Of a stretch of DNA of 64,000 nucleotides, positions 55,041 through 55,389 are shown in pieces. The notes beneath the pieces are model-generated. The model was not told where the DNA came from and ran no database searches. It saw only the letters and a list, made by a program, of their open reading frames with translations. The stretch is from Gemmatimonadaceae bacterium. Its GTDB lineage: Bacteria; Gemmatimonadota; Gemmatimonadetes; Gemmatimonadales; Gemmatimonadaceae. Location of the stretch: positions 62,001-126,000 of the forward strand of contig DATNEW010000001.1 in assembly GCA_035606695.1 (NCBI GenBank). The letters run 5' to 3'. The translations under genes were made by a program, and so were the position numbers. Within the stretch, counting starts at the first letter, position 1. Every line of letters begins with the position of its first letter.

Positions 55041-55069
55041 TTGACGGCGGTTGGCCCGATCGATAGCTT
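55041..55069 (+). promoter_or_regulatory. Predicted promoter of the tRNA-Asn leader
   Basis: TTGACG (55041-55046) and TAGCTT (55064-55069) are separated by 17 nt. The predicted start is about 55076, almost on the leader ATG (55077), so the leader peptide mRNA could be leaderless. Confidence 0.5.
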
Positions 55070-55076
55070 GGATGCC

Positions 55077-55142
55077 ATGACGAACCGCGCCAATAATTCC
55101 AATAATCGCAATAACCGGGGCTGCTCCCCGACGACTGGCTGA
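55077..55142 (+). CDS. Asparagine-rich leader peptide (21 codons)
   Basis: ATG...TGA encodes MTNRANNSNNRNN followed by RGCSPTTG: seven Asn in 21 residues (positions 3, 6, 7, 9, 10, 12, 13), five of them as AAT, a rare codon in such GC-rich DNA. The gene is too short for most gene finders. It precedes a terminator and the tRNA-Asn (GTT) gene, whose tRNA reads exactly these codons. This is the classical layout of a ribosome-stalling leader peptide for attenuation. Function is inferred from layout only; a mini-ORF ATG-CCA-TGA overlaps the start. Confidence 0.65.
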   Translation: MTNRANNSNNRNNRGCSPTTG

Positions 55143-55177
55143 CGCGCGTTCGTTCACGATTTACGCGGCCCGCCAGT
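55134..55177 (+). promoter_or_regulatory. Predicted antiterminator stem of the tRNA-Asn leader
   Basis: ACTGGC (55134-55139) pairs with GCCAGT (55172-55177), and CGCG (55143-55146) with CGCG (55164-55167). This shares 55172-55174 with the terminator stem and cannot form together with it. The upstream segment CGCGCCA (55086-55092) can pair with the same 5' arm (55136-55146), forming the protector 1:2 stem. Confidence 0.6.
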
Positions 55178-55193
55178 GATGGCGGGCTTTTTT
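55168..55193 (+). terminator. Attenuator terminator ahead of tRNA-Asn
   Basis: GCCCGCC (55168-55174), loop AGTGAT, GGCGGGC (55181-55187), then six T. A textbook intrinsic terminator located 76 nt before the tRNA. Confidence 0.85.
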
Positions 55194-55204
55194 GCTAATA
55201 CTGT

Positions 55205-55255
55205 AGTCGCGGAATTCCGAGCGAAGGTGCGAAGCGCCGAAGCGAGGAACAATCT
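55205..55255. repeat. Partial copy of the dispersed CCGAGCG repeat
   Basis: AATTCCGAGCGAAGGTGCGAAGCGCC-GAAGCGAGGAACAATC resembles the GTCATTCCGAGCG...GCGAGGAATC arm at 36821-36846. It is degenerate and lies in the spacer between the attenuator and the tRNA. Confidence 0.45.
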
Positions 55256-55269
55256 TCTTCAGCAAGTGA

Positions 55270-55342
55270 TGGGGCGTAGGTCAATTGGCAGACCGTCCGG
55301 CTGTTAACCGGAAAGTTGATGGTTCGAGTCCATCCGCCCCAG
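55270..55342 (+). tRNA. tRNA-Asn (anticodon GTT)
   Basis: Full cloverleaf: acceptor TGGGGCG/CGCCCCA; D arm GGTC-AATTGGCA-GACC; anticodon stem TCCGG/CCGGA with loop CTGTTAA (GTT); variable AAGTT; T arm GATGG-TTCGAGT-CCATC; discriminator G. The 3' CCA is not encoded. The gene is monocistronic: it has a 17-bp terminator directly after it. Its charged product would decode every Asn codon of the leader peptide. Confidence 0.95.
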
Positions 55343-55351
55343 TTCGAACAC

Positions 55352-55389
55352 AACACAAACGCCCACGCAAAAGCGTGGGCGTTTGTGTT
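55352..55389 (+). terminator. Terminator after tRNA-Asn
   Basis: AACACAAACGCCCACGC, loop AAAA, and a perfect 17-bp complement GCGTGGGCGTTTGTGTT. It ends transcription of the tRNA. Confidence 0.85.

Follow-up and report, generated by a model that had tools for sequence, protein, structure and literature searches.

Why should a gene for a single tRNA stand behind a short open reading frame rich in codons for its own amino acid, followed by a transcription terminator? This question is raised by a locus in the window, a stretch of 64,000 nucleotides from a Gemmatimonadaceae bacterium (genome of 5.9 Mb in 50 contigs), a member of a soil-bacterial family. For bacterial tRNA genes, the usual descriptions place control at the promoter or in processing. 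Here, the original prediction had proposed a promoter, an Asn-rich leader ORF, a terminator and a tRNA-Asn gene, and re-reading of positions 55041-55342 bears out this layout: we observe, from 5' to 3', a promoter, a 21-codon ORF, a 9-pair terminator with its T-run, a 48-base dispersed repeat and tRNA-Asn(GTT). We interpret the segment as a ribosome-mediated transcription attenuator that senses charged tRNA-Asn and whose regulated gene is the second tRNA-Asn gene of the genome, and we give this reading a probability of roughly 85%. The features are collected in Table 1.

Table 1. Features of the tRNA-Asn locus, in positions of the window
Feature	Position	Strand	Basis or remark
Predicted sigma-70-type promoter, TTGACG-17 nt-TAGCTT	55041-55069	+	Hexamers recur in leaders of relatives
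Promoter hexamers	TTGACG 55041-55046; TAGCTT 55064-55069	+	17 nt between
Leader ORF MTNRANNSNNRNNRGCSPTTG, seven Asn codons	55077-55142	+	Conserved in relatives
Putative protector 5' strand, long-range, partner about 55136-55154	55079-55092	+	Predicted fold; compensation test
Local hairpin CGGGG-CTGCT-CCCCG	55116-55130	+	Weakly supported without alignment (z -1.9)
Antiterminator 5' strand GACTGGC, sharing bases with the final leader codons	55133-55139	+	Covariation with 55172-55178
Intrinsic terminator GGCCCGCCA-GTGA-TGGCGGGCT, then T-run	55167-55188	+	9 pairs
Dispersed repeat between terminator and tRNA	55208-55255	+	About 60 genome copies
tRNA-Asn(GTT), second and divergent tRNA-Asn of the genome	55270-55342	+	tRNA search
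Likely terminator hairpin 3' of the tRNA	55352-55387	+	Next gene on opposite strand

The tRNA-Asn gene is the sole tRNA gene in the window. It had been described as monocistronic and is so here, because the next gene lies on the other strand and follows a likely terminator hairpin. The dispersed repeat was probably inserted and lies outside the switch; copies of it measure 45-48 bases (GCGGAATTCCGAGCGAAG...AGGAACAATC) and often form tandem pairs, about 57-60 bases apart.

The leader is a short ORF with several codons for asparagine, the amino acid of the regulated tRNA (AAC at 55083; AAT at 55092, 55095, 55101, 55104 and 55110; AAC at 55113), and it is separated from the tRNA gene by an intrinsic terminator. 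Across the 16,338 codons of the window, Asn accounts for 2.9% and AAT for 0.87%, which agrees with the view that the leader is Asn-rich and that five of its seven Asn codons are of a locally rare kind. At the window Asn frequency, at least seven Asn in 20 residues would arise with P = 1e-6, and among 373 short ATG ORFs in the window this leader is the only one with more than four.

Of 49 tRNA matches in the genome, one is a further tRNA-Asn(GTT) (tRNA-Asn1, beginning TCCCCGA), which is preceded by a plain promoter without any leader. This plain type is also present in most leader-positive relatives, and in 10 genomes the plain tRNA-Asn genes show no leader and terminator layout. Because a plain tRNA-Asn accompanies it both here and in most leader-positive relatives, the leader-bearing gene (tRNA-Asn2) is a second copy, probably inducible, beside the ordinary one. 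Its product has the fold of an ordinary tRNA and carries U1-A72 and G73. We considered descent from a tRNA-Gln ancestor and rejected it, the best match among the genome's own tRNAs being tRNA-Lys, with a low score. Among the 48 distinct tRNAs of this genome, a cognate-rich ORF and terminator in the tRNA-proximal layout were seen only at tRNA-Asn2, and no convincing leader precedes any of the others.

Relatives retain this arrangement. For the family sample, 179 Gemmatimonadaceae genomes were searched for tRNA-Asn and the upstream DNA was read, and a covariance model of the leader (R1) was made from 16 aligned leaders. In this sample the model gave 25 matches at E <= 3e-12, and each of them lies immediately 5' of a tRNA-Asn gene, on the strand of that gene. 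One genome has two tRNA-Asn genes with a leader before each, and genus g8 contributes three loci with a more diverged leader (L035, L036, and L043). When the scan was widened to 395 genomes of the phylum, one further match appeared, in a second family (G386), where the leader MTRRNRNRNHNIGPHRGSV is followed by a terminator and tRNA-Asn begins 12 nt past the terminator stem. In this second family, about 16 of the 30 tRNA-Asn loci read have an Asn-rich leader and terminator of differing sequence, with leaders such as MITFAVLGSNRNRNLNSNSGGRAA and MYKTATPNHNRNSNRCFRGTGRA and GC-rich terminators that differ likewise. A strict pattern search for antiterminator plus terminator yielded few extra loci, including some chance matches.

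Counting both families, about 40 tRNA-Asn loci have retained an Asn-rich ORF together with a terminator. Asn makes up 192 of 916 residues (21%) over 42 leaders versus the 2.9% window background, a figure that is only depressed by the inclusion of a mis-picked ORF with zero Asn (L198), and the leader is thus neither unconserved nor Asn-poor in relatives. In 21 of 28 family leaders, an Asn codon lies exactly nine codons 5' of the stop. The leader is missing from most family genomes and is therefore evolutionarily dispensable. At three loci of genus g3 (L022, L026, and L047), the tRNA-Asn2 promoter is followed directly after the start by a terminator-like hairpin and T-run, with no leader ORF before tRNA-Asn2; this hairpin may be either a relic or a different control.

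The promoter was recognised in 20 of 42 leaders, compared with a mean of 1.1 and a maximum of 5 in shuffled sequences, and in 17 of the 20 leaders with a scored promoter the -10 element ends 5-7 nt before the ATG. Given this spacing, the leader RNA probably starts at or beside the A of the ATG, i.e., as a leaderless mRNA.

The core of the antiterminator pairs ACTGGC (55134-55139) with GCCAGT (55172-55177) inside the 5' arm of the terminator, and the two structures are mutually exclusive. The leader stop codon adjoins the antiterminator strand, so that a ribosome at the stop would cover this strand and one at an upstream Asn codon would leave it free. In an alignment of 26 leaders that was fitted to a model without the antiterminator, 88% of cells are paired between the two strands (55133-55139 with 55172-55178), 18 cells changed on both sides versus 5.8 in shuffles, and the score of 0.297 compares with values of at most 0.155 in slid controls. 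An alignment-free test, in which the pairing of a strand with its own partner is set against its pairing with the partners from other leaders (10,000 permutations, kinship not removed), gives z -5.6 for the antiterminator (0 of 10,000) and z +0.7 for a control pairing. This is the pattern expected of the mutually exclusive pair that the original prediction had drawn. An antiterminator extended past the stop codon was rejected, as it displays no compensation (z -0.1 in the alignment-free test). The terminator and the local hairpin covary too in the leader alignment, the latter appearing in relatives as CTCC/GGAG within CGG../CTGG. With 6 pairs the antiterminator of this genome is short, and it does not stand out in rank from other possible partners. 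The folding energy of the leader is by itself unremarkable and uninformative (z = -1.4); the case rests on conservation.

The third pairing that had been drawn, a protector stem, fared less evenly. Compensation lends it moderate support (z -2.9, 21 of 10,000 permutations; 25 leaders, kinship not removed). For 40 of 41 leaders, a fold model has the 5' arm of the terminator more often sequestered with a ribosome at the Asn codons than with one at the stop. Sequestration is 0.70 without a ribosome, 0.76 when stalled and 0.48 at the stop, the last value being low partly through the design of the test. Since the arm is modelled as mostly sequestered even in the ribosome-free state, close to the stalled value, the protector may be weak, and termination in the absence of translation would not be assured.

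From the conserved Asn-rich leader and the covarying antiterminator, which support the attenuation interpretation, we infer a dependence on charged tRNA-Asn that could operate as follows. RNA polymerase would initiate at or near the leader ATG with a ribosome trailing behind. When Asn-tRNA is ample, the ribosome would reach the stop codon and cover the antiterminator strand, the terminator would form, and transcription would end before the tRNA. When charged tRNA-Asn is scarce, the ribosome would pause at the AAT and AAC codons, the antiterminator strand could pair with the 5' arm of the terminator, and polymerase would enter tRNA-Asn. If no ribosome translates the leader, the antiterminator strand would be masked by the long-range protector, and transcription would terminate. 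The net effect would be a feedback that adds an inducible tRNA-Asn gene to the ordinary one. Counted against attenuation are the absence of the leader from most family genomes, the short antiterminator of this genome, the possibly weak protector and one relative, L015 (G115), without a leader stop codon. Its TAG reads TCG and the ORF continues through the terminator, either as a natural variant or through an assembly error.

Raising a tRNA while its amino acid runs short is not obviously useful, and one possible purpose, compatible with attenuation, lies in asparagine synthesis. In genus g29 and in G146, an E. coli-type asnB carries an Asn-rich leader and terminator (L085, L183, L184, L185, and L186), and the presence of Asn leaders on asnB thus links these leaders to asparagine. 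Close AsnB relatives (E <= 1e-110; 99 genomes) occur only in g29, G146, and G014, and the model search gave no leader before tRNA-Asn in any of these. This suggests, from small numbers, that tRNA-Asn and asnB may be interchangeable as leader targets. Asparagine can be made on tRNA-Asn by bacteria that combine AsnRS with GatCAB and an AspRS of the non-discriminating type; AsnRS and this indirect route coexist in Deinococcus, Thermus, and Bdellovibrio, and the route requires a tRNA-Asn with U1-A72 (PMC4206432), as tRNA-Asn2 has. Tentatively, then, a non-discriminating AspRS might load tRNA-Asn2 with Asp for GatCAB to convert to Asn-tRNA, and the attenuator would control a biosynthetic gene in the classical manner, with the tRNA in the place that asnB holds in other genera.

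The restriction of AsnA to g29 speaks for this purpose, as does the lack of an AsnB-type match at E <= 1e-60 in eight leader-positive genomes (G085, G086, G088, G102-G105, and G114); both AsnA and AsnB-type matches are thus missing from several genomes with the leader. Against it, AsnRS is found in practically all genomes, this genome has two TIGR01536 matches, tRNA-Asn1 bears U1-A72 as well, and some genomes are incomplete. It is conceivable, though we rather doubt it, that tRNA-Asn2 is the platform for AspRS/GatCAB synthesis and that AsnRS uses the plain tRNA-Asn1. The corresponding rule, by which the Asn leader stands on asnB where a genus has the E. coli-type gene and on tRNA-Asn where it does not, is likewise possible rather than probable. 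If the indirect route holds here, the tRNA would be a biosynthetic component and its attenuation of the classical sort. Asparagine made solely on tRNA was rejected as a general cause, with AsnRS near-universal and AsnB-type proteins in many genomes.

The attenuator might instead respond mainly to the decoding of AAU, for example to the queuosine state of tRNA-Asn(GUU), a queuosine tRNA, or to a general slowing of translation, and not to Asn supply. AAT does take an unusual share of the Asn codons, 5/7 in this leader and 60% over the 42 leaders versus 30% in the window, but AAC codons are also retained (L024 and L188 have mostly AAC), slow codons are common in attenuators, and the asnB leaders point towards asparagine. 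We consider this response unlikely.

A quite improbable alternative is that the tRNA has its own promoter downstream of the terminator (TGCTAATAC, about 55193-55202), leaving leader and terminator as an unrelated short transcript. The spacer between terminator and tRNA measures 81 nt in this genome and holds this extended -10-like match, and spacers of 75-125 nt occur at some other loci; here, though, 48 of the 81 nt are the dispersed repeat, and leader and tRNA-Asn remain linked across two families. In eight relatives (L067, L046, L071, L188, L021, L024, L030, and L065), the spacing is merely 9-15 nt, which leaves no room for a promoter, and there the tRNA must therefore be read through the terminator. 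A downstream start, which the original prediction had named as a competing possibility, is thus excluded in these relatives, while in this genome the longer spacer could hold one.

Also quite improbable is a switch meant for a gene downstream of the tRNA, with the tRNA merely carried along. The close-set genes of genus g21 and the ATP-grasp-like protein of G386 might suggest it, but here a terminator-like hairpin and an opposite-strand gene follow, and the genes 3' of the tRNA vary between genera. The g21 gene, which starts MPFRILVTDDVDQEG or similarly and lies close 3' of tRNA-Asn (L016, L017, and L041), is probably a D-3-phosphoglycerate dehydrogenase. In G386, the ATP-grasp-like protein (MKASVSTARTIVMLTGANYPDLAADDRVL...; L178) begins directly after tRNA-Asn and may be co-transcribed.

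Leaders of this kind also stand before other genes. A leader of the same architecture, MSNSFRRAQLLQSLTPNSRKRSG, precedes a terminator and the gene for the large subunit of glutamate synthase (L083; G006:C65, about 78559-78686). The leader MTTSRFMPFSKCKPLSSTGIWLTHA, conserved with some variation in genus g8, lies with a terminator before an aspartate-aminotransferase-like gene (L076, L077, L081, and L084), which suggests further leader-peptide attenuators in the family.

Compared with known systems, the locus shares with the attenuators of amino acid operons (trp, his, leu, thr, and ilv) a short ORF rich in regulatory codons, a stop codon beside the antiterminator strand and an arm common to antiterminator and terminator. 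It differs in its target, a tRNA, in its predicted leaderless mRNA and in its phylum, Gemmatimonadota, and not every member shows a strong protector. The asnB leaders of the same family are alike in having an Asn-rich ORF and terminator before the gene, and in g29 the terminator arm is complementary to the end of the ORF; they differ from the tRNA-Asn leaders by their classical enzyme target, and no description of Asn-rich asnB leaders was found in the literature searched. T-box riboswitches follow the same logic, with uncharged tRNA leading to read-through, but sense by direct tRNA binding and not via a translated ORF. The leader gave no Rfam match to the T-box (stem I, specifier loop, T-box sequence) even at a permissive threshold, and it matches no Rfam leader family.

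Leader-peptide attenuation is known for pheST. In addition, a his leader precedes hisS/hisZ (PMC2965389). In these aminoacyl-tRNA synthetase attenuators, as in the tRNA-Asn switch, the target supplies the sensed aminoacyl-tRNA; here, however, the product would be the RNA itself. Naville and Gautheret report leader peptides only from Proteobacteria, Actinobacteria, and, newly, Firmicutes, and do not mention tRNA genes as targets (PMC2965389). Our literature search, which covered open-licence papers, likewise turned up no tRNA gene under leader-peptide attenuation, in keeping with the novelty first claimed for this locus, and no description of leader-peptide attenuation in Gemmatimonadota. The class of mechanism is old and known for enzyme genes; here its target would be a tRNA gene. 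If our reading is true, how well its own codons are read would set the switch on a tRNA gene, closing a direct loop, and such a codon-specific switch would make the matching of single tRNA levels to demand directly testable.
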